Positions 2-17,133 of a DNA stretch of 24,303 bases are shown piece by piece. How positions within the stretch are numbered: the stretch's first letter is position 1; each line of letters begins with the position of its first letter. The stretch spans positions 1 to 24,303 of IMG/VR virus record IMGVR_UViG_3300034375_005124. One strand, 5' to 3'. Position numbers and translations under genes: made by a program. The notes beneath the pieces were generated by a model. It made no database searches. It was not told where the DNA came from and saw nothing but the letters and a program-made list of their open reading frames with translations. Origin of the DNA: a virus.

Positions 2-3000
2 CCATTGTATAGAACTGGTGCTGATGACAAATATCATAAATTTCAAAGATATTCTGATGAAGATGTTATGGTTGTTGGTGGTACTAATAAGCGTGTTGGT
101 ATAGGTACATCCTCGCCTAGCACTAGCCTCCATGTTATAGGGGGAGATGGAACGGTTGCAAGATTTGAAGAATCGGTAAGTGGTAAATATGCTATTGCAG
201 ATGGCAATAGTTTTGTTGCATCTAAAGAACTATACATTAAAGCTGGGGCGGTATCAAATAACCATATATATTTTCAAAATAGTTCAAGTACCAATATGGC
301 TCTTCTATCTAATGGAAATTTGGGCATCGGTACAACCTTGCCTAGTGGTAAAGCTCACATTTTTTCGGGATCTGCTGGTGGTTCTAGTGCAATATTTAAT
401 CAAGCAGATGAGCTTGTAATTGAAAATAGCGACCATGCTGGAATTACTATAAAATCACCAGCGAATAAAGAATCAAGTGTATTTTTTGGAGATGCTGACG
501 ATAGCTCAAGGGGTGGCATAAGATATAATCACGATGGCGACACAATGACTTTTCAAGTTGCTAGTGCTAAATTAATTCTTGACCTCAACTCTCGCATTAG
601 TCTATCTAATAATGATAATGGTTCATCAAATACAGTTTTTGGTTATCAAGCTGGTAATTCTATAGCATCAGGTTCACTTGGAAATGCTTTATTTGGTGAA
701 TCAGCTGGTGCTGGAATATCAACAAATGACTATAATACATTCATAGGTAATAATGCTGGTAGGTTTTATGGTCATGCATCAGCTACAAAAAATACTGCTG
801 TAGGTTATCAATCAATGTATGTAGGTGGTAACGCATCTACAAATTCAGCTTTTGGCAATACTGCATTAGGATATCAAAGTTTATATTTAGTTACTACTGG
901 AAGTAACAATGTATCTTTAGGTTATATAGCAGGAGATAGTCTAACTACTGGCTCATCTAATGTTATTGTTGGCTCAGGTGCAGGAGTTAATGCAACTACA
1001 CAAAGTCAATGTGTATTAATTGGAGCTGACGCTGGATTTTTATTAAACAATAATAATGCAAATGGTACAATAGCAATTGGCTATCAAGCTGGTTATTTAA
1101 TAAATCAAGGAATTAATAATACTGTTGTAGGTAAACAAGCCATGAAAGGCATTACAACTGGAGATAATAATATTGCTATTGGTGCTTTAGCATTAGGTGA
1201 TGCAGATGCTGGTGTTTATTCAGGTAACTCAAGTTCAAATATTGCAATTGGTTCTAGTGCTATGGGCGGTACTATGGCAAATATTACTTCTGATAATAAT
1301 ATAGCTATTGGTACAAACTCACTAAGCGGTAGTTTAAATGGAGTATCTGATAATATAGGAATAGGTACTAGTGCCTTAGAAAACTTAACTACTGGAGATA
1401 GCAATATAGCTATTGGACTTGGAAGTTTGCGAGCAATAAATGACGATGGAAGAAATATCGGAATAGGAGCAGAATCATTAAAATCATTTAATGGCAGTGG
1501 AGATACTTACAATGTTGCAATTGGACATAGGTCGCAATATGCTAGAACTGGTGGTGTACAAAATACTGCTTTAGGTGCTTTTTCTCAATATGGTGGAATA
1601 ACTGGAACTGCTCCAACTGGAGATGGAAATACATCTGTTGGTTATGCAACATTGCATAATCTTACAAGCGGTGCTTATAATGCAGGATTTGGAATACAAG
1701 CTGGCTATAATAATAAAACTGGTGTGTATAATCATAGCTTTGGTTATCAAGCTGGATATTATAATGAAACTGGTTCACACAATACTGCTGTTGGGGGAAA
1801 GGCTTTATTTGGTGCTAGTGGGCAAAGTCATTCAGCCAATACTGCAGTTGGATATGAAGCATTAAAAGTATTAACAACTGGTGCTTCAAATGTTGCACTA
1901 GGAAGTGGAGCTGGTCTTAGAGTAACCTCTTCAAGTGAAAATATTTTAATAGGTAGAAATAGCGGAGCTGGACTTACAACTGGCTATAACAATACTTATA
2001 TTGGTCATGCAGTAGCAAGTCATTCAAGTGCTAGTACTAATCATTCAAATACTTTTGTAGGAAGTGCAGTTGCAAGTAGTGGTGTTTTTACTGGTGCTTA
2101 TAATGTTGGAATGGGTAGGAATGCTTTATTGGCATTAACAAGTGGTCAACAAAATAGTGCGGTTGGAAACACATCATTATCTTCAAATACTTCAGGTAAT
2201 TTTAATTCAGCATTTGGATATGAGTCTTTAAGATATAATCAAACTGGAACTTCAAATACTGCTTTAGGTCATTCATCTCAAAGAGGTGCAAGTGGTAATT
2301 CTCATACGAACAATACTTCTGTAGGTCATCATTCTTTATATTCAATTACTACTGGTGGTGGTAATACTGCAATCGGAAAAGGTGCTGGAGATGCAATTAC
2401 TACAGACCAAAATGTAGTAGCTATTGGTTATAATGCCTACTCATCTAATGATGTATCTGCTGATGCTGAAGGCAGTTCAGGTCATGGTAGTGGTAATATT
2501 GCAATCGGCTATCAATCAATGGAATCTTTTAATCATGTTGATTTTTTAAGAAATACTGCGGTTGGCTTTCAAACAATGTCAGCTGGCACAAGTAATGCTT
2601 CTCAAGATAATGTAGCTTTGGGGTACAGAGCTTTACAATTAGTGACAGATGGAGACAGAAATGTAGCACTTGGTGCATATGCTGGAAAAGCCATCACAAG
2701 CGGAACAGAAAATATTGCGATAGGTAAAAGTGCCTTATTAGCTTTAACAACTGGCAATAGTAATGTAGCGATAGGTCAAAGTACAATGTCATCTGCTGAT
2801 GGCGGAGAGGATATGAATGTTGCCATTGGCTACCAAACTATGAATTTAGTTAATAACGATGATGCTAACCATAATATTGCATTAGGTTATCAAGCATTGC
2901 AAGTCACACGAACTACTGGTTCTGTAGCAATAGGAAATCAATCTCTAAAAGCTAATACATCAGGTGAGTATAATACTGCAATAGGTTATATGGCTGGAAA

Positions 3001-3640
3001 AACAATTAATAGTGGTTATAGTAATACAATAATTGGATATGAAGCTTTACTTGCAGTTACTGGTGGATACCAAAATGTTGCGATTGGTCATCGTAGTGGT
3101 AATCAAATTAACACTGGAGATTCTCATGTTCTTATTGGCTATAGTGCTGGTACAACCTTAACAGATGGTAGACGTTGTACAGTAGTAGGTGATGAGTCTG
3201 ACGTATCTGCAAGTGGTGCATTAAATCAAACTGTTATTGGTCAAGGAGCAACTGGAGTACAAGATAACAGTGCTATAATTGGTAACTCAGCTTGTGCCGA
3301 TGTTTTTATGGGTGACAATGGATCAGCTTGGAGTACAACGTCAGATGGTAGGTTAAAAGAAAATATTGAAGAATGGTCTACTGGCTTAGATGCAATAAAC
3401 AAACTAAGAATTGTAGAATACAATTTTAAAGAAGATAATCCATACAAGTATGACCACAAGAAAAAACGTCAAGGTATCATAGCACAAGAAGCTATAGAAG
3501 CAATACCTGAAATGATTAAAGATGATGGTGAATGGTTAACTGCTAACCAAGAACCAATGATTTGGGCATTAGTAAATGCCGTAAAAGAATTGACAAAGAA
3601 AGTCAATATATTAGAAACTAAACTAAATAAGGAAAACTAA
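2..3640 (+). CDS. Tail fibre / trimeric adhesin with S74 intramolecular chaperone (5' partial)
   Basis: The reading frame is open from the left edge, so the true start lies outside the window; the TTG at position 5 need not be the start. At least 1211 residues are visible. Residues ~1-200 are a variable region with GIGT and GNLGIGTT motifs typical of phage fibre shafts. From ~210 to ~1100 there are dozens of degenerate repeats of the type N-T-A-[IVL]-G-[YH]-Q-[AS], as in YadA/Hia-like head domains, which form left-handed beta rolls in trimers. The C-terminus is an S74 peptidase (endosialidase-type chaperone): S-D-G-R-L-K-E-N-I at about 1113-1121, with Ser-Asp at the usual self-cleavage point, then G-I-I-A-Q-E near 1157-1162 and a terminal helix. 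In this family the chaperone drives trimerisation and then cuts itself off. Expected role: receptor binding at the virion tail. The lysis genes follow directly. Family calls come from motif recognition; the receptor is unknown. Confidence 0.9.
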   Translation, partial: PLYRTGADDKYHKFQRYSDEDVMVVGGTNKRVGIGTSSPSTSLHVIGGDGTVARFEESVSGKYAIADGNSFVASKELYIKAGAVSNNHIYFQNSSSTNMALLSNGNLGIGTTLPSGKAHIFSGSAGGSSAIFNQADELVIENSDHAGITIKSPANKESSVFFGDADDSSRGGIRYNHDGDTMTFQVASAKLILDLNSRISLSNNDNGSSNTVFGYQAGNSIASGSLGNALFGESAGAGISTNDYNTFIGNNAGRFYGHASATKNTAVGYQSMYVGGNASTNSAFGNTALGYQSLYLVTTGSNNVSLGYIAGDSLTTGSSNVIVGSGAGVNATTQSQCVLIGADAGFLLNNNNANGTIAIGYQAGYLINQGINNTVVGKQAMKGITTGDNNIAIGALALGDADAGVYSGNSSSNIAIGSSAMGGTMANITSDNNIAIGTNSLSGSLNGVSDNIGIGTSALENLTTGDSNIAIGLGSLRAINDDGRNIGIGAESLKSFNGSGDTYNVAIGHRSQYARTGGVQNTALGAFSQYGGITGTAPTGDGNTSVGYATLHNLTSGAYNAGFGIQAGYNNKTGVYNHSFGYQAGYYNETGSHNTAVGGKALFGASGQSHSANTAVGYEALKVLTTGASNVALGSGAGLRVTSSSENILIGRNSGAGLTTGYNNTYIGHAVASHSSASTNHSNTFVGSAVASSGVFTGAYNVGMGRNALLALTSGQQNSAVGNTSLSSNTSGNFNSAFGYESLRYNQTGTSNTALGHSSQRGASGNSHTNNTSVGHHSLYSITTGGGNTAIGKGAGDAITTDQNVVAIGYNAYSSNDVSADAEGSSGHGSGNIAIGYQSMESFNHVDFLRNTAVGFQTMSAGTSNASQDNVALGYRALQLVTDGDRNVALGAYAGKAITSGTENIAIGKSALLALTTGNSNVAIGQSTMSSADGGEDMNVAIGYQTMNLVNNDDANHNIALGYQALQVTRTTGSVAIGNQSLKANTSGEYNTAIGYMAGKTINSGYSNTIIGYEALLAVTGGYQNVAIGHRSGNQINTGDSHVLIGYSAGTTLTDGRRCTVVGDESDVSASGALNQTVIGQGATGVQDNSAIIGNSACADVFMGDNGSAWSTTSDGRLKENIEEWSTGLDAINKLRIVEYNFKEDNPYKYDHKKKRQGIIAQEAIEAIPEMIKDDGEWLTANQEPMIWALVNAVKELTKKVNILETKLNKEN
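626..3340 (+). repeat. Array of YadA-head-like coding repeats in the fibre gene
   Basis: Tandem degenerate coding repeats, each about 14-30 codons, built around Asn-Thr-Ala-(Ile/Val/Leu)-Gly-Tyr-Gln-(Ala/Ser) with a following Leu-Thr-Thr-Gly-x-x-Asn turn. DNA words such as ggttatcaagctgg and aatactgc recur many times. Such arrays can expand or contract by recombination and so change fibre length. Confidence 0.8.
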
Positions 3641-5367: not shown

Positions 5368-5401
5368 TGTCCGCTATATGTCCGCTCATAAATCTGTCCG
5401 C
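5368..5401 (+). promoter_or_regulatory. Integrase arm-type sites, right triplet
   Basis: Three copies of TGTCCGC at 5368-5374, 5379-5385 and 5395-5401, spaced 11 and 16 bp. The last copy runs into the integrase stop codon. With the left pair they flank the tRNA-like core. Together they look like P and P' arms of a heterobivalent tyrosine integrase. Confidence 0.6.
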
Positions 5402-6339
5402 TAGATTTTATCAATGATTCTACTGTAATCATCGGTATCCATATGAATGTAGGTCTTTACTGCTTTAGAATCGTGTCCAGTAATATTCTTTATATCACTT
5501 TCACTTATACCTTCTTTAGCTAATTTGGTAGTGACGCTATGCCTTATCGCATGAAAGTCAGTCTCATATCCAAATGTAGCCATGATCTCTTGATATCTTT
5601 TTCTACTACGAGCAATATGATTTGAGTTTGGATATATATTATATATCCTATCACCGTAGTCTAATATTTTTTGTGGAAGAGGTATTGGTTTAGGTATACC
5701 GCTCTTTTGTTGTATTACACCTTGCTTAACTTGATTCTCAGTAAGGCATCCAGCATCGTAAACTCTTAGTCCAGTATATAATAATAAACTCCAGAATATT
5801 TTATCTTTCTCATTGTTAGTGATAGCAATGGCTTTTTTAATATCATCAACCGGTATAGGTCTTCTAGGCTTTGTAGCATTCTTAGACGGCATCCTTATAC
5901 CTTTTAATGGATTTCTCTCAGTATACTCTTTAGTATGTAAGGCATAATTCATCATAGCACTAAGAACCATTAATTTATTACGAGCAGTTTTTGAAGTATT
6001 TTCTAAATCCATGAGTAGATAATTTTTATAATCATCAAATACAGATGGTTTTAATTCATCTACGTTTGGATCATATTTTAACCATTCAAAAAAATTATCA
6101 ACATGCCTTTTATTTGCCCTTGAATCTTTAAGAAGTTTTACAGTCTCTTTATACTCTTTTATTAATTGGCTGAGTTTAACTGTAACTATACCTTTAGCAT
6201 TCCAATAATGTTCATCAAGAATTTTTTGTCTTCTTTTTGCTTCTTTCTTACTACTTGTTTGTAAAGACTTTTTTATTCGTGACTTACCACTACCTTTACT
6301 ATAATACCATGTGTTTTTATCTTTATATAAACTTGACAT
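5401..6339 (-). CDS. int: Phage integrase, tyrosine recombinase
   Basis: 312 residues. It catalyses site-specific recombination between attP (beside its 3' end) and the host tRNA gene. N-terminal residues ~1-50 form a basic AP2-like or arm-binding region, ~55-145 a SAM-like core-binding domain, and ~160-312 the catalytic domain. Catalytic residues are visible in order: Arg192 in T-G-L-R-V-Y-D, Lys212 in the beta-hairpin, His263-x-x-Arg266 in F-H-A-I-R-H, His289 in T-G-H-D, and nucleophile Tyr297 in K-T-Y-I-H. Length and motif spacing are normal and nothing appears broken. The start ATG is preceded by AGGGAG. The gene sits eight bases after the repressor stop, so both are read from the repressor promoter, as in many compact lysogeny modules. 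Confidence 0.95.
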   Translation of the reverse strand: MSSLYKDKNTWYYSKGSGKSRIKKSLQTSSKKEAKRRQKILDEHYWNAKGIVTVKLSQLIKEYKETVKLLKDSRANKRHVDNFFEWLKYDPNVDELKPSVFDDYKNYLLMDLENTSKTARNKLMVLSAMMNYALHTKEYTERNPLKGIRMPSKNATKPRRPIPVDDIKKAIAITNNEKDKIFWSLLLYTGLRVYDAGCLTENQVKQGVIQQKSGIPKPIPLPQKILDYGDRIYNIYPNSNHIARSRKRYQEIMATFGYETDFHAIRHSVTTKLAKEGISESDIKNITGHDSKAVKTYIHMDTDDYSRIIDKI

Positions 6340-6347
6340 ATATCTCC

Positions 6348-7085
6348 CTATTCATTTGCCCACCTTATTGTAGCAGTTCCAGTTCCATTCATCCAATTAA
6401 CTCTATACTCAACATCACATGCAAATACTCTACCGTTTTTCGCAGTGTATTTTACCGGGACGACTGCAATTAACATTGTTGTATTATCTTTAAGGTCTTT
6501 ATATGCTACCATAAATTTTTTAATAATTTTGAGCATTTCAGTTTTTTGTTCCGGTGTTCTTAATTTATGTATGTTATGGTCTTTATATTTTACCATTTCA
6601 CCAATCATCAATAATTTGGTCATTTCATCCTCAGTATATCCTAGTTTTTTCGCCATTATAGGTACATATTTATCTGCATCATCATTATACATAACTTTTA
6701 TAGTTGGCACTGGTAACCAATTCATTTCTATTTCAAAATTAAATATTATTTGATCCAAAGTATTGTCGTATATACTCTCAGGTTGTTTTTCCCGTTCTAA
6801 TCTGGCTATTTTTTCCGCTTGTAGCTTTATAAGCATACTTTGTTGATTCACTGTGAGTTCTCCTTCCTCAGTATTGTTTTTATTTACTTCACTTGTAAAA
6901 TAAGATTCAGGTAATCCGAAACCCTTTCTTATTTTATGGAGTACTTTACCACTTGGCACTCTGCCTCCATTTTCATAATAAGCTAACCCACTAGTACTAA
7001 TGTCAACTATTTTACAAAATTTTTTTCTACTCAGGTTTTTAGATTCTCTAAATACCTTAATCATTTTACCTAACTCTATAGTCAT
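6348..7085 (-). CDS. XRE-family repressor-like regulator
   Basis: 245 residues when started at the ATG at 7085, chosen because GGAGG lies about 7 bases upstream; an ATG eight codons earlier lacks such a site. Residues ~5-55 are a Cro/C1-type helix-turn-helix (Leu-Ser-Arg-Lys-Lys-Phe-Cys-Lys-Ile-Val-Asp-Ile-Ser, then Tyr-Tyr-Glu-Asn-Gly-Gly-Arg-Val-Pro). A Lys/Glu-rich stretch around ~75-95 may be coiled coil. The remaining ~150 residues do not resemble a LexA-type protease: I see no Ser-Lys dyad motif. It faces a divergent promoter pair and lies upstream of int, the position of a lysogeny repressor. Induction is therefore unlikely to use RecA-driven self-cleavage; an anti-repressor or ligand is possible (inference). 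Confidence 0.8.
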   Translation of the reverse strand: MTIELGKMIKVFRESKNLSRKKFCKIVDISTSGLAYYENGGRVPSGKVLHKIRKGFGLPESYFTSEVNKNNTEEGELTVNQQSMLIKLQAEKIARLEREKQPESIYDNTLDQIIFNFEIEMNWLPVPTIKVMYNDDADKYVPIMAKKLGYTEDEMTKLLMIGEMVKYKDHNIHKLRTPEQKTEMLKIIKKFMVAYKDLKDNTTMLIAVVPVKYTAKNGRVFACDVEYRVNWMNGTGTATIRWANE

Positions 7086-7138
7086 ATAAATACCTCCATA
7101 CTTATACATAACTAATTATTTATTTGCACATACCACTA

Positions 7139-7198: not shown

Positions 7199-7387
7199 AT
7201 GAATACAGAGCAATACATTTATTTCACTACTGCGGAGGTAGCTGAAATACTGAAGATAGATAGGCAGAGTGTTCTTGATATGATCCACAAAAAAGAGATA
7301 GGTTTTTTAAAACAAGGCTATCGTTCCTACCGCATACCAAAGGAATCACTTGACAAATATATATCACAAAAGACCACAAAAATTTAA
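7199..7387 (+). CDS. Excisionase-like / MerR-type helix-turn-helix protein
   Basis: A 62-residue small DNA-binding protein. Residues ~9-55 match the HTH_17 (excisionase family) pattern: Phe-Thr-Thr-Ala-Glu-Val-Ala-Glu-Ile-Leu-Lys at the first helices, then Val-Leu-Asp-Met-Ile-His-Lys-Lys-Glu-Ile, then the wing Tyr-Arg-Ser-Tyr-Arg-Ile-Pro-Lys-Glu-Ser-Leu. It is the first gene of the rightward operon, opposite the repressor, so it may act as a Cro-like antagonist, an excisionase, or both. The ribosome site is poor (acaataaat), and the ATG lies only about 20 bases after the predicted transcription start, so translation may be weak. Family call is solid; the role is inferred. Confidence 0.8.
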   Translation: MNTEQYIYFTTAEVAEILKIDRQSVLDMIHKKEIGFLKQGYRSYRIPKESLDKYISQKTTKI

Positions 7388-7409
7388 AATATTTTTACCA
7401 CAAATTATT

Positions 7410-7516
7410 AATCGGTTGTCTGCTATTATAGCTCCGATTCAAGCCTTCCGCATATCACATCTCAGAGCGATTAGGATGAGTAATACCTCCACTTATCCAT
7501 ATGTGGGCAACCGATT
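7410..7516 (+). ncRNA. Candidate structured RNA (stacked stems with pseudoknot) leading the nuclease gene
   Basis: In the 147-base gap between the HTH gene and the nuclease gene, three nested stems pair almost without a break on the 3' side: P1 7410-7418/7508-7516 (9 bp, perfect), P4 7448-7455/7499-7506 (8 bp, one G-U) and P3 7474-7481/7491-7498 (8 bp, one G-U, loop 7482-7490). A further pairing, 7431-7434/7465-7468 plus 7436-7437/7462-7463, joins the two 5' bulges and would make a pseudoknot. The structure ends 18 bases before the next start codon. No known riboswitch or ribozyme class is recognised. It could instead be a DNA operator. Confidence 0.45.
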
Positions 7517-7534
7517 TAATTACAAAGGATAAAC

Positions 7535-8380
7535 ATGAAATTACCAGAAGATTCGATATCACCTTTTGAAGAACAGAGTATAGCTAGGTCTAATACTACA
7601 TTAGGTAGATATTACCATTTATATGGAGCGACTCCGGTAAAAGTTCCTTCTGTTACTACAGTACTAAGTAATGTTATAAATAAGGGATATGCGTTTGATA
7701 TGTGGCTAAAAAATTACGGTCATTTTTCAGATTGGTACAGAAATTTTAAAGCAAATAAAGGAACGGCAGTTCATTATTGTGTAGAAAAATTAAAAAATGG
7801 TGAAACATTAAGTTTTGGCGAGATCAAAGAAATAGTATTTAGGTACTGTAATGTTATTGATATTGCCATGAATGGTGGTAAGAGTGCGTTACTCAGAAGT
7901 GTTTGTATGTACATTGAGTCATATATGGCATATTACGAGGAACACAAGCCACTGTTATTAGCATGTGAGTATCAGATGTATTCTCAAGGTCTAGGCTTTG
8001 CCGGTACGGCTGATGAGATTTGTGAAATTGGTTCTTTAGCTCAAAGGACAATCTTAGATATAAAGACCGGTTCGCAATCTGATAGTCACATAATTCAAGG
8101 TAATGCATACGCAATGCTCTGGAATGAATTAAATCCAGATTACAAGGTCGGTCATGTTGCGGTGCTTTATCTTAAGGACTCTTTCAAATTGAAACCAACA
8201 TTCACGCTGAAGATGGAAGCAGTTAATACTACAATGTGGGAAGATATACTTAAAATATATCAGAATAAGTATATGAATAAAGATGGTGGATATAAGCAAA
8301 AAGCAAAATGGAGTCCTAGAGTACAATTCAACATAAGAAAGGAAATAGCAGATGTCAGAATGGACACAGTTGAAATTTAA
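7535..8380 (+). CDS. PD-(D/E)XK exonuclease, Cas4/RecB-like
   Basis: 281 residues. The nuclease motifs occur in the Cas4/RecB order: His80 in G-T-A-V-H-Y, Glu145, Asp160 in F-A-G-T-A-D, Asp175-Ile-Lys177 in I-L-D-I-K-T-G, and the Q-x-x-x-Y motif at 188-192. I see no cysteine cluster like the Cas4 iron-sulfur site. The substrate is probably DNA ends; the next gene is an SSB-like protein overlapping by 29 bases, so the two may act together in recombination or replication. The ribosome site AAAGGAT lies seven bases before the ATG. The gene follows the structured leader at 7410-7516. The catalytic-fold call is strong; exo- versus endonuclease activity is not decided by sequence. Confidence 0.85.
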   Translation: MKLPEDSISPFEEQSIARSNTTLGRYYHLYGATPVKVPSVTTVLSNVINKGYAFDMWLKNYGHFSDWYRNFKANKGTAVHYCVEKLKNGETLSFGEIKEIVFRYCNVIDIAMNGGKSALLRSVCMYIESYMAYYEEHKPLLLACEYQMYSQGLGFAGTADEICEIGSLAQRTILDIKTGSQSDSHIIQGNAYAMLWNELNPDYKVGHVAVLYLKDSFKLKPTFTLKMEAVNTTMWEDILKIYQNKYMNKDGGYKQKAKWSPRVQFNIRKEIADVRMDTVEI

Positions 8381-11412: not shown

Positions 11413-11673
11413 TTGTTGGCTATATATGATAAGGAAAAGTCTATTCAATGGGTAATAGATGCAATAGAGATAAGTAAAGAAAGAGAAGTCCCACAAAAGA
11501 ATCTTATAACAGATACTACAACTGATAACGCTGATAAAAGCGTAATGCGTTGTGGTAAATGTGATGTTGGTTGGGAAGAGACATATAGATATGGTAGAAG
11601 ATTATATTTGTATTACCGGTCTTATGTCAGACTTGGAAAGGAATTAAGGACATGTCCAAAGTGCAAAGGGTAG
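11413..11673 (+). CDS. Small zinc-ribbon protein
   Basis: 86 residues with TTG as the earliest possible start, because an in-frame TAG stands at 11401; the ribosome site is weak. The C-terminal half carries Cys-Gly-Lys-Cys around residues 47-50 and Cys-Pro-Lys-Cys at the end, a C4 zinc-ribbon pattern, with an aromatic, Arg-rich stretch between them. N-terminal ~40 residues are helical and charged. Such proteins often bind nucleic acid or act as small regulators, but the role here is unknown. It overlaps the MazG-like gene by 22 bases. Confidence 0.55.
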   Translation: MLAIYDKEKSIQWVIDAIEISKEREVPQKNLITDTTTDNADKSVMRCGKCDVGWEETYRYGRRLYLYYRSYVRLGKELRTCPKCKG

Positions 11674-12455: not shown

Positions 12456-12549
12456 ATGGTAAGTGGAAAATATCTTAGTATTAGGTTTATTTACGAGATA
12501 AGAGACTGATAAAGATACTGCAATAAATGCCTATGTATAGGTAAAAAAA

Positions 12550-12579
12550 AAAGACCCCAGAGTAAAATCTGGGGTCTTT
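12550..12579. terminator. Bidirectional terminator between convergent operons
   Basis: A perfect 12-bp stem (AAAGACCCCAGA with TCTGGGGTCTTT) and a six-base loop. On the minus strand the stem runs into a T tract (10 consecutive T), a strong intrinsic terminator for the leftward operon. On the plus strand a shorter TTT follows. It sits between the last rightward gene and the last leftward gene. Confidence 0.9.
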
Positions 12580-12590
12580 CAATTACCTCC

Positions 12591-13935: not shown

Positions 13936-14130
13936 CTATTCACTCCCTTCATAATTACGTCCTATGTAATCTGGAGTACTAATAAAGCGTTGAAAAACCT
14001 TACCTTCCACGCTCCAACTTTCAATCTTTTCGCCATATTTCCACCATTGTGTAGCCTCAGTTTTATTATTAGCTTTTACCTTATAAGTAGAAAAAACTAC
14101 TTCTCGTACTTCTACAATATATTCCTTCAT
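13936..14130 (-). CDS. DpnD/PcfM-like small protein
   Basis: 64 residues; the ATG overlaps the upstream stop by one base. N-terminal pattern Glu-Tyr-Ile-Val-Glu-Val-Arg-Glu-Val-Val, then Val-Lys-Ala-Asn-Asn-Lys-Thr-Glu-Ala, then an aromatic helix resembles the DpnD/PcfM-like beta-beta-alpha family, the same plan as the gene at 15516-15737. The two may be diverged paralogues. The role of this family is not well known. Located in the coupled lower half of the operon, without a hairpin leader of its own. Confidence 0.5.
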   Translation of the reverse strand: MKEYIVEVREVVFSTYKVKANNKTEATQWWKYGEKIESWSVEGKVFQRFISTPDYIGRNYEGSE

Positions 14131-14591
14131 TATCCGTATATCACCTTTCCAAATAGAGCTATCTGCACTATTTCATCACAATCACCGGCATCTAAATGGT
14201 CACCTTCGTGTCCAATAGAGAACCTTTTATTTTGTTGCATCCATTTTTCCAGACCTTCAATTAAACCATCGTACTGTAGGTATTTTATGTGGCAAGAATC
14301 TTCTGGCTCTAACATTGTAAAGCCTATAGAATATTTATCTCGGTCATCGTCTTCATTATGGTCATAGTTAAATACTAATGATAGCATTTTTGACTTTATT
14401 AAATCATCAAACGCATAATCTGGTAGCTCGTTGTATTTATCAAAAACAATATCATCAAATTCTGGGTCGTATTTATCACCCCATAATCCAACTTCTCTGC
14501 ACCAATAATTAATACCACCATCAAAAGCTCCTTGCAAGATATTACAAAGGGTTTTATCGGTCATTTCGTTTTTTACATTAATCGTAAACAT
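14130..14591 (-). CDS. Conserved-looking phage protein, unknown
   Basis: 153 residues with its own hairpin leader and a GGAGG site. The N-terminal Thr-Leu-Cys-Asn-Ile-Leu-Gln-Gly-Ala-Phe-Asp-Gly-Gly-Ile-Asn-Tyr-Trp is a signature I recall from phage hypothetical proteins in which an 'L..aF.GG.nYW' motif is conserved. The middle is acidic (Asp-His-Asn-Glu-Asp-Asp-Asp-Arg-Asp) and the C-terminus contains His-Glu-Gly-Asp-His-Leu-Asp-Ala and Ile-Val-Gln-Ile-Ala-Leu-Phe-Gly. The repeated His and Asp residues could bind metal. No enzymatic function is known to me. Confidence 0.65.
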   Translation of the reverse strand: MFTINVKNEMTDKTLCNILQGAFDGGINYWCREVGLWGDKYDPEFDDIVFDKYNELPDYAFDDLIKSKMLSLVFNYDHNEDDDRDKYSIGFTMLEPEDSCHIKYLQYDGLIEGLEKWMQQNKRFSIGHEGDHLDAGDCDEIVQIALFGKVIYG

Positions 14592-14637
14592 TTGTTTACC
14601 TCCATTTGTTTGTTGAGATTTATCGCTCCATGCGATA
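14592..14637 (-). promoter_or_regulatory. Hairpin leader cassette, copy A
   Basis: On the minus strand: stem TATCGC/GCGATA (plus coordinates 14621-14626/14632-14637), then AATCTCAACAAAC, then TGGAGGTAAAC before the ATG at 14591. It is the most diverged copy and the only one with a non-GC-rich stem. Confidence 0.6.
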
Positions 14638-14638
14638 G

Positions 14639-14682
14639 AAGGTAGGAAGGGAATCGAACCCTATCTAGTACCATACTACCTT
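14639..14682 (-). other. tRNA-like mini-helix (acceptor plus T-arm)
   Basis: On the minus strand AAGGTAG (14682-14676) can pair with CTACCTT (14645-14639), and inside lies AGGG-TTCGATT-CCCT (14662-14648), a textbook T-arm. Only 13 bases occupy the place of the D and anticodon arms. No full cloverleaf can be built from the neighbouring sequence. It lies between the stop at 14698 and leader copy A. It may be a tRNA remnant or a tRNA mimic. Confidence 0.4.
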
Positions 14683-14697
14683 TATACAAGATGATCT

Positions 14698-15150
14698 TTA
14701 ACCCATCGGGAATTGATCCTTGTGCCTATTAAGATTTAATGCAAAATACTTATGTGACACTCTGGCGGTATCAATCCCTAAATGTTCTGGGTCGCTTAAC
14801 CATCGTTTTTCAATATCAAAAAATGGATACTTTTTAGGGTTTTGGTTACCAGACTTAATAACCTTAGTTACTCTAACTGTATCTGATCCTATGTATTTTT
14901 TGAATTGATTTTTAACAACTAAAACATCTCCAACTTTTACTTTATTTGGTTGAGCAATGTTTTCTGTTGTTTCATGTATTTTGATACTTCTGCGATCCAA
15001 TCTATAAATAACATAAACCGGTATTCTGTAATCAGTTCGACAGACCGAGCAAGTAAAATAAAGAAATGTTTTTTCTTTATTCATTCGATAATCTCTGACT
15101 TCAAGATCATCAATTTCCTTCTCGCAACATCTATGTACTTGTTCTTGCAT
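14698..15150 (-). CDS. Cys-rich phage protein, unknown
   Basis: 150 residues with hairpin leader B and TGGAGGTTA before the ATG. N-terminal residues contain Cys-Cys (8-9) and later Cys-Ser-Val-Cys (about 34-37), a possible zinc knuckle set. The middle (~70-95) reads Val-Lys-Val-Gly-Asp-Val-Leu-Val-Val-Lys, like a small beta-barrel or KOW/SH3-type strand pair. The end, Phe-Ala-Leu-Asn-Leu-Asn-Arg-His, is polar. The combination suggests a nucleic-acid- or protein-binding module, but no family is recognised. Confidence 0.6.
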   Translation of the reverse strand: MQEQVHRCCEKEIDDLEVRDYRMNKEKTFLYFTCSVCRTDYRIPVYVIYRLDRRSIKIHETTENIAQPNKVKVGDVLVVKNQFKKYIGSDTVRVTKVIKSGNQNPKKYPFFDIEKRWLSDPEHLGIDTARVSHKYFALNLNRHKDQFPMG

Positions 15151-15210
15151 ATTATAACCTCCATTTTATTTTAAAAAAATCTTTGGGCGGTCAGGATTGT
15201 ACAACCGCCC
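15151..15210 (-). promoter_or_regulatory. Hairpin leader cassette, copy B
   Basis: Stem GGGCGGT/ACCGCCC (plus 15185-15191/15204-15210). On the minus strand it is followed by AAAGATTTTTTT and then ATGGAGGTTATAAT before the ATG at 15150. Confidence 0.75.
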
Positions 15211-15219
15211 TATCTAGTA

Positions 15220-15450
15220 TTAACCTATTCCATTATTACACCTCCTTGCTTTTACTCTCTCGTGAACCATTGCGACCCTATCTCTATAATTCTGTAAATC
15301 TAAAACCCACGGGTCTTCAGAATCATACTTACAAGGGTTGTTGTCTACTTGGTCTATTGTCTCATCAATAGATTTAAGCAACAAAGCGAACCGCTTCGCA
15401 TTAGTCCAAGAATGTAAAATAATAGTACATATTTTATCATTTATTGGCAT
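15220..15450 (-). CDS. Small helical protein, unknown
   Basis: 76 residues with hairpin leader C and AGGAGGTTA before the ATG. The sequence is mostly helical: Asn-Ala-Lys-Arg-Phe-Ala-Leu-Leu-Leu-Lys-Ser-Ile, an Asp-rich loop, and Val-Ala-Met-Val-His-Glu-Arg-Val-Lys-Ala-Arg-Arg. It has three Cys but no paired knuckle. No family recognised. It is a separate cassette with non-coding sequence on both sides. Confidence 0.55.
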   Translation of the reverse strand: MPINDKICTIILHSWTNAKRFALLLKSIDETIDQVDNNPCKYDSEDPWVLDLQNYRDRVAMVHERVKARRCNNGIG

Positions 15451-15501
15451 TGGTTAACCTCCTTTTGTTGAGAAAATTCTTGCCCCGGAATTACTCCGGG
15501 G
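15451..15501 (-). promoter_or_regulatory. Hairpin leader cassette, copy C
   Basis: Stem CCCCGGA/TCCGGGG with a five-base loop (plus 15483-15489/15495-15501). On the minus strand it is followed by CAAGAATTTTCTCAAC and AAAAGGAGGTTAACC before the ATG at 15450. Confidence 0.8.
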
Positions 15502-15515
15502 TCTTGGTTATAGTT

Positions 15516-15737
15516 TTAATTGCCTTGTTTTTTTCTTCTACGAAGAATACCGGGAGGGGTTATATCGACACTTATTGTCTCACAATCAACTATTTGTTTT
15601 CTTATAAGTTTATAATTATCAGGGTAACCCTTTTCCCATTCATAATAAAAATAATCTTCGGCATCTTCTTTTGATTTAGCTTCTACCTCGATTACTTTAC
15701 GCACAGTCTCATAAACAACTACATCGTATGTTTTCAT
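15516..15737 (-). CDS. DpnD/PcfM-like small protein
   Basis: 73 residues with hairpin leader D. The sequence starts Met-Lys-Thr-Tyr-Asp-Val-Val-Val-Tyr-Glu-Thr-Val, then Val-Ile-Glu-Val-Glu-Ala-Lys-Ser-Lys-Glu-Asp-Ala-Glu, then an aromatic helix, matching the DpnD/PcfM-like pattern (two strands and an 'A.s.eeA' helix). The C-terminal Arg-Arg-Arg-Lys-Lys tail is basic and could contact nucleic acid. Related proteins occur in mobile elements, but I know of no firm function. Confidence 0.6.
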   Translation of the reverse strand: MKTYDVVVYETVRKVIEVEAKSKEDAEDYFYYEWEKGYPDNYKLIRKQIVDCETISVDITPPGILRRRKKQGN

Positions 15738-15791
15738 GTTATAACCTCCATTTGTTAAGAAAATTCTTTGCCGGGATTTATCCGTCCCGGC
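15738..15791 (-). promoter_or_regulatory. Hairpin leader cassette, copy D
   Basis: Stem GCCGGGA/TCCCGGC (plus 15770-15776/15785-15791). On the minus strand it is followed by AAAGAATTTTCTTAAC and AAATGGAGGTTATAAC before the ATG at 15737. This copy is close to the consensus. Confidence 0.8.
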
Positions 15792-15800
15792 TCGGTTTGT

Positions 15801-16106
15801 TTATTTGTTCATCTCCTTTTTAAGCTTGGCTTGTAGTTTCTTACTAGACTTAACAAACGCTTTTATGCATTCGGTTTGGTCTTTGTAATGTTTGATAACT
15901 TGAGGTACAACAAGAGAGCCGTTATTAAATGGCTTTGGTTCAGTATCTTTTATTACAGTTATTTGGTCTGAACCTTTACTTGTTTTAGTAAAATCAAGGT
16001 CTTGATATATAATAAGTCCTTGTTTTGTGATTTCACCGTATACCGGTTTATCTCCCGGGAAACTAAGGTATTTATGTTCCCAAGCTTTGACAAACTGTCT
16101 ATTCAT
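15801..16106 (-). CDS. Small basic phage protein, unknown
   Basis: 101 residues with hairpin leader E. The first ~60 residues are beta-rich (Lys-Tyr-Leu-Ser-Phe-Pro-Gly, Val-Tyr-Gly-Glu-Ile, Gly-Leu-Ile-Ile-Tyr-Gln-Asp). The end is a Lys-rich helix (Lys-Ser-Ser-Lys-Lys-Leu-Gln-Ala-Lys-Leu-Lys-Lys). No motif or family recognised. The basic tail may bind nucleic acid, but this is weak inference. Confidence 0.55.
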   Translation of the reverse strand: MNRQFVKAWEHKYLSFPGDKPVYGEITKQGLIIYQDLDFTKTSKGSDQITVIKDTEPKPFNNGSLVVPQVIKHYKDQTECIKAFVKSSKKLQAKLKKEMNK

Positions 16107-16163
16107 TGTATAACCTCCATTATTATTAAGAAAAATCTTTGCCGGGGTCTTACCCTCCCCGGC
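16107..16163 (-). promoter_or_regulatory. Hairpin leader cassette, copy E
   Basis: Stem GCCGGGG/CCCCGGC (plus 16141-16147/16157-16163). On the minus strand it is followed by AAAGATTTTTCTTAAT and AATGGAGGTTATACA before the ATG at 16106. Confidence 0.8.
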
Positions 16164-16185
16164 TAGGGTTTAGCGTGTCCTTCTG

Positions 16186-16404
16186 TTATTTTTTAGGCTT
16201 TATAAACATATTAGAACCGTCCATATCAAACCATCTTCTAATTTTCCTATCTAGTATTTCAATTTGCTCTTTGCGTTGGTCTTTGTCCCATGTGGCACTA
16301 AATCCCATAGTCATTACATCAAGCAGAAATTCAAGGGTCTTTTTGTGTCCCTTCTCAGGTTCTAGGTTTCTGTATATTTCGTATATGTTTGTATTATGTT
16401 GCAC
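16186..16404 (-). CDS. Small helical protein, unknown (GTG start)
   Basis: 72 residues starting at GTG, fixed by leader copy F, in which GGAGGTAATACA stands at the same distance from the start as in the other cassettes. The sequence is charged and helical (Lys-Thr-Leu-Glu-Phe-Leu-Leu-Asp-Val-Met and Lys-Glu-Gln-Ile-Glu-Ile-Leu-Asp-Arg-Lys-Ile-Arg-Arg-Trp). No known motif. This shows how the repeated leader can be used to choose starts in this region. Confidence 0.55.
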   Translation of the reverse strand: MQHNTNIYEIYRNLEPEKGHKKTLEFLLDVMTMGFSATWDKDQRKEQIEILDRKIRRWFDMDGSNMFIKPKK

Positions 16405-16460
16405 TGTATTACCTCCATTAGTTAAGAAAAATCTTTACCCGGTATTATTCGCCCCCGGGT
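16405..16460 (-). promoter_or_regulatory. Hairpin leader cassette, copy F
   Basis: Stem ACCCGG/CCGGGT (plus 16437-16442/16455-16460). On the minus strand it is followed by AAAGATTTTTCTTAAC and TAATGGAGGTAATACA before the GTG at 16404. Confidence 0.75.
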
Positions 16461-16471
16461 TGGGTCGGTTG

Positions 16472-16876
16472 TTAGCTAACTCTAAAGAAATACCAATCGC
16501 CGAACTCGTGTTCGCTATGGTCATAGTGTGCGAAGTGATGACCGTAGCCATCGTGCTTAATGTACTGCTCTGTAACTGTGTCAATGTGTTTTACTAGCAT
16601 TTTACCAAGTCCTTCGTAACCGTTGCACTCTTGCAGTTTTTCGATGATTTCAATATCAAGATTTAAAATATCAGCAATGAACCACGCATTAAAAGAGCCT
16701 AAGATATACAAGTCGCTCTGTAACTCATCGGCTAATATATCGTCTATATCGTTAGCATGTATGAAGCGGTAATCGTTGACCTCGAAATCCGTTTCTTTTA
16801 TCATATTTAAACGAACTTCTTTTATATCTGATTTATCAAAATCAAATGATCTTAGAGTTTTATTTATTGTTACCAT
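16472..16876 (-). CDS. Phage protein with His/Tyr-rich C-terminus, unknown
   Basis: 134 residues with hairpin leader G. The first ~90 residues are alpha/beta with Asn-Ala-Trp-Phe-Ile-Ala-Asp-Ile-Leu. The C-terminus reads Gly-Tyr-Gly-His-His-Phe-Ala-His-Tyr-Asp, then Glu-His-Glu-Phe-Gly-Asp-Trp-Tyr-Phe-Phe. The closely spaced His, Asp and Glu suggest a metal site. I recall similar C-termini in phage hypothetical proteins, but no function. It is one of the longer genes of the cassette island. Confidence 0.6.
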   Translation of the reverse strand: MVTINKTLRSFDFDKSDIKEVRLNMIKETDFEVNDYRFIHANDIDDILADELQSDLYILGSFNAWFIADILNLDIEIIEKLQECNGYEGLGKMLVKHIDTVTEQYIKHDGYGHHFAHYDHSEHEFGDWYFFRVS

Positions 16877-16935
16877 TTTGTAACCTCCATTAGTTTTAGT
16901 TGAGAAAAATTTTTGCCGGGTATAAACCCCCCGGC
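16877..16935 (-). promoter_or_regulatory. Hairpin leader cassette, copy G
   Basis: Stem GCCGGG/CCCGGC (plus 16915-16920/16930-16935). On the minus strand it is followed by AAAAATTTTTCTCAAC and CTAATGGAGGTTACAAA before the ATG at 16876. Confidence 0.75.
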
Positions 16936-16944
16936 TAGGTGTGG

Positions 16945-17133
16945 TTATGCAAACTGCCTTAAAATAGCGTTGGCGGTATCTATTGCCGGTTGCTTTTCTG
17001 ATTCATAGCTTGATCCTTCCATAGATTGAATGCCTTTTTTACTAGTAGTATTTATTACGTACTCTTGCCAGTTATTATCGTAAGCAACTGTAATAATTAC
17101 GTTACTGTTTTCTAGTGTTGTTATAGTGTGCAT
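16945..17133 (-). CDS. First gene of leftward operon, small protein, unknown
   Basis: 62 residues with hairpin leader H. Predicted beta-rich first half (Thr-Ile-Thr-Thr-Leu, Asn-Val-Ile-Ile-Thr-Val-Ala-Tyr) and a helical end (Ala-Ile-Asp-Thr-Ala-Asn-Ala-Ile-Leu-Arg-Gln-Phe). No known motif. As promoter-proximal gene it is likely the most strongly expressed member of the island. Confidence 0.55.
   Translation of the reverse strand: MHTITTLENSNVIITVAYDNNWQEYVINTTSKKGIQSMEGSSYESEKQPAIDTANAILRQFA

Follow-up and report, generated by a model that had tools for sequence, protein, structure and literature searches.

A folded, conserved RNA between two early genes of a temperate phage carries a loop complementary to start sites of the repressor and of leftward genes

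The locus

The window (the whole stretch of DNA analysed, an IMG/VR record of 24,303 bases) derives from a temperate tailed phage. The integrase and repressor genes run leftward. The rightward early operon comprises, in order, HTH_17, the element studied here, exonuclease, an SSB-like gene, a PDDEXK_14 protein, a DnaD-like loader and a second PDDEXK protein. Flanked by the HTH_17 and exonuclease genes, the element thus sits between genes 1 and 2 of this operon, about 230 nt 3′ of a presumed early promoter.

5401–6339, leftward: integrase
6348..7085 (−): HTH_3 repressor gene (Pfam PF01381, E 1.2e-9)
7085–7083 (−): repressor start codon
7165–7170: TATAAT, presumed early promoter
7199..7387 (+): HTH_17 protein of 62 amino acids, first gene of the rightward early operon, directly 5′ of the element (Pfam PF12728, E 2.2e-14)
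7535..8380 (+): exonuclease gene, directly 3′ of the element (phrog_298, E 2.4e-21)

The repressor start is more likely at 7085, as judged by alignment with the repressors of two homologous contigs (L003 and L004); the open frame extends to 7109. The SSB-like gene takes its name solely from its position and low-complexity tail, and had no match in Pfam or PHROGs. In the phage collection nothing matched the integrase, and TerL had distant matches only. Read as coding sequence, 7350–7532 gave no Pfam or PHROGs match, and a coding function was rejected upon inspection of the alignment, in which the frame is shifted by indels in both L003 and L004.

Several other features of these genomes were observed. 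A strong intrinsic terminator at 12549–12580 (−), with a 13-bp stem (GACCCCAGA...TCTGGGGTC) and a T run, lies at the junction of the rightward early and the leftward operon. At 5–3640 (+) the window encodes a highly repetitive tail-fibre-like protein with GNxAxGxxA-type repeats, the final segment of which resembles an S74-type intramolecular chaperone (both by eye only). The leftward stretch 14130–17133 (−), like the leftward operons of L002, L003 and L004, is a run of small genes, nearly all without a known family, each preceded by a near-identical ribosome-binding module (AATGGAGGTTATAacATG) in a cassette-like manner. The repressors of these four phages have a common N-terminal DNA-binding part and entirely different C-terminal halves, which differ even when the window is compared with L002, its closest relative; this is a possible case of immunity diversification.

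Fold and conservation of the RNA

Homologous contigs were found via the exonuclease protein. The element is carried by four sequences: the window, L002 (exonuclease 98% identical to that of the window), and L003 and L004 (81–83%). These few sequences form one clade with about three independent lineages. Pattern scans of viral contigs and genomes, followed by a P1 filter and inspection of folds, returned the same contigs only, among the matches listed. A covariance model of the element (R1) found no second copy at related loci, and the flanking gene pair occurs without an RNA between in L013, L043–L048 and L051.

The RNA at 7410–7516 has a folding energy of −30.7 kcal/mol (z −3.48), better than all 200 dinucleotide shuffles. 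Its conserved structure is organized as follows.

7400..7409 (+): AU-rich unpaired 5′ flank ACAAATTATT; 10 of 10 positions identical in the window, L003 and L004
7410..7423 (+): closing stem P1, 5′ arm AATCGGTTGTCTGC; 13 bp in all four sequences, with two-sided changes in two pairs
7431..7434 (+): P2, 5′ arm GCTC; a strand of the pseudoknot proposed in an earlier note, here nested within the conserved fold
7445..7458 (+): conserved unpaired core CTTCCGCATATCAC (CCCTCCGCATATNAC in L003 and L004); 86–93% identical
7465..7468 (+): P2, 3′ arm GAGC; pairs with the 5′ arm
7474..7481 (+): P3, 5′ arm GGATGAGT; two-sided changes in four pairs, 96.9% of cells paired
7482..7490 (+): P3 loop AATACCTCC; loop and next base hold the invariant ACCUCCA, the proposed antisense seed
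7491..7498 (+): P3, 3′ arm ACTTATCC; pairs with 7474..7481
7503..7516 (+): P1, 3′ arm GTGGGCAACCGATT; pairs with 7410..7423

P1, at 13–15 bp, encloses the whole RNA of about 107 nt, including the inner hairpin P3. When the alignment was searched for helices that pair in all four sequences, two stood out: P1 with 13 bp (7410–7422/7504–7516) and P3 with 7 bp. Over the four sequences 97.1% of cells in the structure are paired, as against 42–44% when the partner is slid by one column, and nine cells are changed on both sides compared with 3.9 ± 1.3 in shuffled controls (0 of 500). Compensatory changes occur in six pairs across P1 and P3; the arms of P3 are 50% identical between the window and L003, with pairing retained.

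The conserved stems contain 76 Watson–Crick pairs, 13 G-U pairs and no A-C pair in the four sequences, indicating that the RNA of the + strand is under selection. This bears on the notion of a DNA element such as a cruciform, a replication origin or a protein-binding site, for which the P1 arms would supply a long inverted repeat near the replication genes. However, pairing is kept on the + strand only, and the minus strand of 7388–7534 folds no better than chance (z −0.72); we consider a DNA element extremely improbable. The unpaired regions are also informative. The P3 loop is 78–100% identical among carriers and the 5′ flank 7400–7409 is 100% identical, versus 33–42% for the adjoining 7388–7399. 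Set against the other unpaired positions of the element (40–53%) and the third codon positions of the neighbouring gene (75–81%), the identities of loop, core and flank show that the conserved loops are under constraint and not just young. We conclude that a folded, evolutionarily maintained RNA lies between the two early genes, a conclusion that is well supported.

The earlier note, made from the window alone, had placed in front of the nuclease/SSB operon a structured RNA that it could assign to no class, a view that folding, covariation and the Rfam search described below support. The stems that it listed are physically present in the window: P1 as 9 bp (7410–7418/7508–7516), P3 (7474–7481/7491–7498; 8 bp, one G-U) and P4 (7448–7455/7499–7506; 8 bp, one G-U), giving 25 pairs in total with two G-U. 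Two of its four helices, P1 and P3, are conserved in homologues, but the other two fared differently. P4 is paired in 65.6% of cells over the four sequences, being complete only in the window and L002 and broken in L003 and L004, in which its partner strand is altered and in part used instead to lengthen P1; in the window and L002 it may compete with inner P1, and the minimum-energy fold of L002 uses it. The fourth helix, a pseudoknot between 7431–7437 and 7462–7468, contains a C-A mismatch already in the window and shrinks to CTC/GAG, 3 bp that are invariant in all four sequences, so that covariation is silent on them either way. Once P4 is dropped these pairs are nested, and no pseudoknot is left. 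A fold seen in a single sequence can thus vanish once relatives are compared.

No match to the Rfam 15 covariance models, including that of C4 antisense RNA, was found with the window, the homologues, or the element alone under permissive filters; a hit to FsrA, in L003 only, is at chance level (10.4 bits versus a cut-off of 80). The description of the fold as typical of riboswitches or ribozymes found no positive support. Its compact junction and many invariant unpaired bases could befit a new class of metabolite riboswitch or of self-cleaving ribozyme, but with no Rfam class even at permissive thresholds, no expression platform, no pseudoknot and a distribution confined to one phage group in the searched collections, among the matches listed, this is very unlikely.

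The P3 loop matches ribosome-binding sites

The invariant ACCUCCA is complementary to TGGAGGT, which serves as Shine–Dalgarno motif for the divergent repressor and many leftward genes but for almost no rightward one. This complementarity to start sites makes plausible the control role that the earlier note had suggested for the ACCTCC loop, the most useful part of that note. The proposed targets are:

7089..7098 (−): Shine–Dalgarno region of the repressor mRNA, TGGAGGTATT; proposed main target, 10-nt perfect complement to the P3 loop
14598..14604 (−): proposed further target, TGGAGGT Shine–Dalgarno sequence ahead of the leftward gene with start 14591
15157..15163 (−): proposed further target, TGGAGGT ahead of the leftward gene with start 15150
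15744..15750 (−): proposed further target, TGGAGGT ahead of the leftward gene with start 15737
16113..16119 (−): proposed further target, TGGAGGT ahead of the leftward gene with start 16106
16411..16417 (−): proposed further target, TGGAGGT ahead of the leftward gene with start 16404
16883..16889 (−): proposed further target, TGGAGGT ahead of the leftward gene with start 16876

In the window, the distance from TGGAGGT to the start codon is equal for the repressor and these six genes. Rightward genes of the window have mostly AAGGA-type sites; one, at 11413 (TTG start), has a 7-nt complement to the loop.

The match between loop and start sites was noticed before it was tested, and the statistics given here are after the fact. 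With start sites taken partly from our own crude gene calls, starts with at least 7 nt of complement to the loop number, leftward and rightward respectively, 4 and 0 in the window, 6 and 1 in the L002 contig, 9 and 0 in L003 and 7 and 0 in L004; other 14-mers from the same contigs reach the leftward count with a frequency of 0.0008–0.0035. The complement at the repressor site is 10 nt long in the window and in L002, 9 nt in L003 and 7 nt in L004; once the cost of opening the target is taken into account, the repressor ranks, in the same order, 3 of 47, 2 of 53, 4 of 54 and 2 of 54. A T precedes GGAGGT in 26 of the 32 leftward GGAGGT sites of the carriers; this T pairs with the A of the loop and not with 16S rRNA (CCUCCUU). 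TGGAGGT...ATG occurs 5–8 times per carrier contig versus 0–1 times in seven related contigs without this type of RNA, in which GGAGGT start sites are near-absent. The seed is predicted to be accessible, with an unpaired probability of 0.98–1.00 in the four carriers, and for the P3 loop the corresponding value is 0.99–1.00.

Other observations weigh against an antisense reading or say little about it. ACCUCC is a generic anti-Shine–Dalgarno sequence. Complementarity of the whole element to start sites is not unusual (0.15–0.24 of random windows). The change in the L004 loop (ACAACCUCC) is not mirrored at the L004 repressor, which retains 7 nt only; loop and site change together solely between the clade of the window and the phage of L014, described below. 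RNAcofold of the element with the repressor start was uninformative, loop–loop contacts being beyond its model.

Two further pairings were tried and rejected. If the core (7445–7458) is taken for a further antisense seed directed at the start at 14130, 11 of 12 pairs form, which is within chance expectation. The ACCUCC loop can also be paired with a segment of the HTH gene (GCGGAGGT), but by inspection this helix is broken in L004. Codons for RIPKES in the HTH gene (CCTACCGCATACCAAAGG, 7325–7345 of the window) resemble, perhaps by chance, the core of the element (CCTTCCGCATATCAC, 7444–7460).

The position of the element also invites comparison with antitermination. In phage HK022, putR lies about 270 nt past the start site, and a put RNA comprises stem-loops spanning about 70 nt (PMC9378689). 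The element is likewise a structured RNA a few hundred nucleotides 3′ of a rightward early promoter, after a small first gene, and has conserved unpaired residues on the + strand. It might accordingly be a cis-acting nascent-RNA element like putR, or an antiterminator-protein site like lambda nutR, which would be made soon after the early promoter and modify RNA polymerase so that the early operon is read through. However, put consists of two adjacent stem-loops, whereas here one long stem of 13–15 bp encloses everything; related phages with the same operon have no RNA there; our scan found no convincing terminator inside the operon to overcome; and antitermination would not account for the way the loop matches start sites. 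We regard antitermination as unlikely.

A different RNA at the same place in related phages

Two further contigs, L014 and L015, have another structured RNA at the same place (z −5.88 and −3.52, respectively), with a long P1 of very different sequence in each, an inner hairpin with the loop CGCUACCC and a near-identical ACAUACYAAA stretch. As neither was matched by model R1, this RNA is at most analogous, not homologous, to the element. A search for its pattern returned only L014, L015 and chance matches. In the phage of L014 (G004), the repressor and the RNA are unrelated to those of the window; there the repressor start ranks 1 of 55 for the exposed loop, which pairs with AAUGGGUAGC over the repressor AUG (ten pairs, one G-U). 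The seed has an unpaired probability of 0.98–1.00 in L014, too, and of 0.85 in L015. The L015 contig has an L014-type RNA and yet, over the 17.7 kb covered, no integrase or HTH_3 match, which counts against an antisense reading; the absence of HTH_3 is weak evidence, since the profile also missed the repressor of the L014 phage.

Two side observations concern these contigs. The RIPKES codons of the window match a conserved stretch of the L015 RNA (ACCACATACCAAAGG, L015:1428–1445) at 15 of 16 positions by eye, which may be chance. Directly 5′ of the HTH_17 gene in L015 (1040–1200) and L013 (2620–2760), a promoter-like TATAAATT precedes the hairpin ACGAC-UCUCCU-GUCGU, behind which stands a strong intrinsic terminator (GAAAAGCCUC...GGGGCUUUUC); this arrangement resembles an attenuator, or a small RNA standing on its own, with another C-rich, anti-Shine–Dalgarno-like loop.

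A structured RNA at the same place in L014 and L015 would also fit a cis-acting leader governing translation or stability of the exonuclease/SSB mRNA, for instance through autogenous binding by the SSB-like protein or exonuclease or as an RNase processing site. The element ends about 8–14 nt 5′ of the exonuclease Shine–Dalgarno sequence in all carriers, and in T4 gene 32 an SSB regulates itself through a leader structure. However, no stem covers or sequesters the exonuclease Shine–Dalgarno sequence or start, the loop does not match the exonuclease's own start site, and the likeness to a gene 32-type autogenous pseudoknot leader fails at the pseudoknot, which is not conserved, P4 being broken in L003 and L004. 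A cis-acting leader is therefore, in our view, quite unlikely.

A possible antisense role in immunity control

The interpretation that we put forward, to which we give somewhat less than an even chance, is that the early lytic operon gives rise to an antisense RNA of the c4 kind, which keeps the repressor and leftward genes from being translated. We infer this function from complementarity, in essentially one clade and one analogue. Early transcription would yield the RNA, which might be excised from the operon mRNA or be active while attached; with no terminator after P1 and no separate promoter evident, a free RNA would need processing. The P3 loop would then pair with TGGAGGT ribosome-binding sites. 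In all four carriers the repressor site is part of a small hairpin whose loop carries GGAG (z −1.5 to −2.7), so that in this clade pairing would begin as a kissing contact. Translation of the repressor and leftward genes would drop, favouring the lytic programme, and rightward genes would be spared by their mostly different, AAGGA-type Shine–Dalgarno sequences.

Among known systems, the functionally nearest are two phage RNAs, c4 and OOP. The c4 RNA of phages P1 and P7 has 77 nt, and its unpaired loops are complementary to the ribosome-binding region of ant and block its translation (PMC12197685). The element resembles it as a phage RNA with a loop complementary to a ribosome-binding region of its own immunity circuit, but c4 represses the antirepressor and thereby favours lysogeny, whereas the predicted targets here are the repressor and leftward genes; sequence and architecture also differ, with no Rfam match. 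In phage lambda, OOP RNA reduces cII and promotes lysis (PMC12197685). The element would likewise be an early phage RNA that lowers a lysogeny regulator; however, OOP is encoded in cis and overlaps its target, whereas the seed of the element is a 10-nt loop about 390 bp away on the opposite strand. RNAs of the FsrA, RsaE, SprX and LhrC kinds in Gram-positive bacteria pair with the Shine–Dalgarno sequences of several mRNAs through exposed C-rich hairpin loops; these are independent genes with terminators, whereas the element lies inside an operon between two genes.

A broader scheme, which we regard as possible and rather doubtful, is an RNA-based control of lysis and lysogeny: the RNA would kiss the Shine–Dalgarno hairpin of the repressor and silence the leftward operon sharing the TGGAGGT address, and other phages of the group would each target their own repressor with an unrelated loop in this position. 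For such phages, a route to target prediction suggests itself, namely to read the loop and search the start sites. If the proposal is true, one short loop would switch the repressor together with a set of genes sharing one ribosome-binding motif, and a layer of RNA would be added to immunity control in phages of uncultured hosts.
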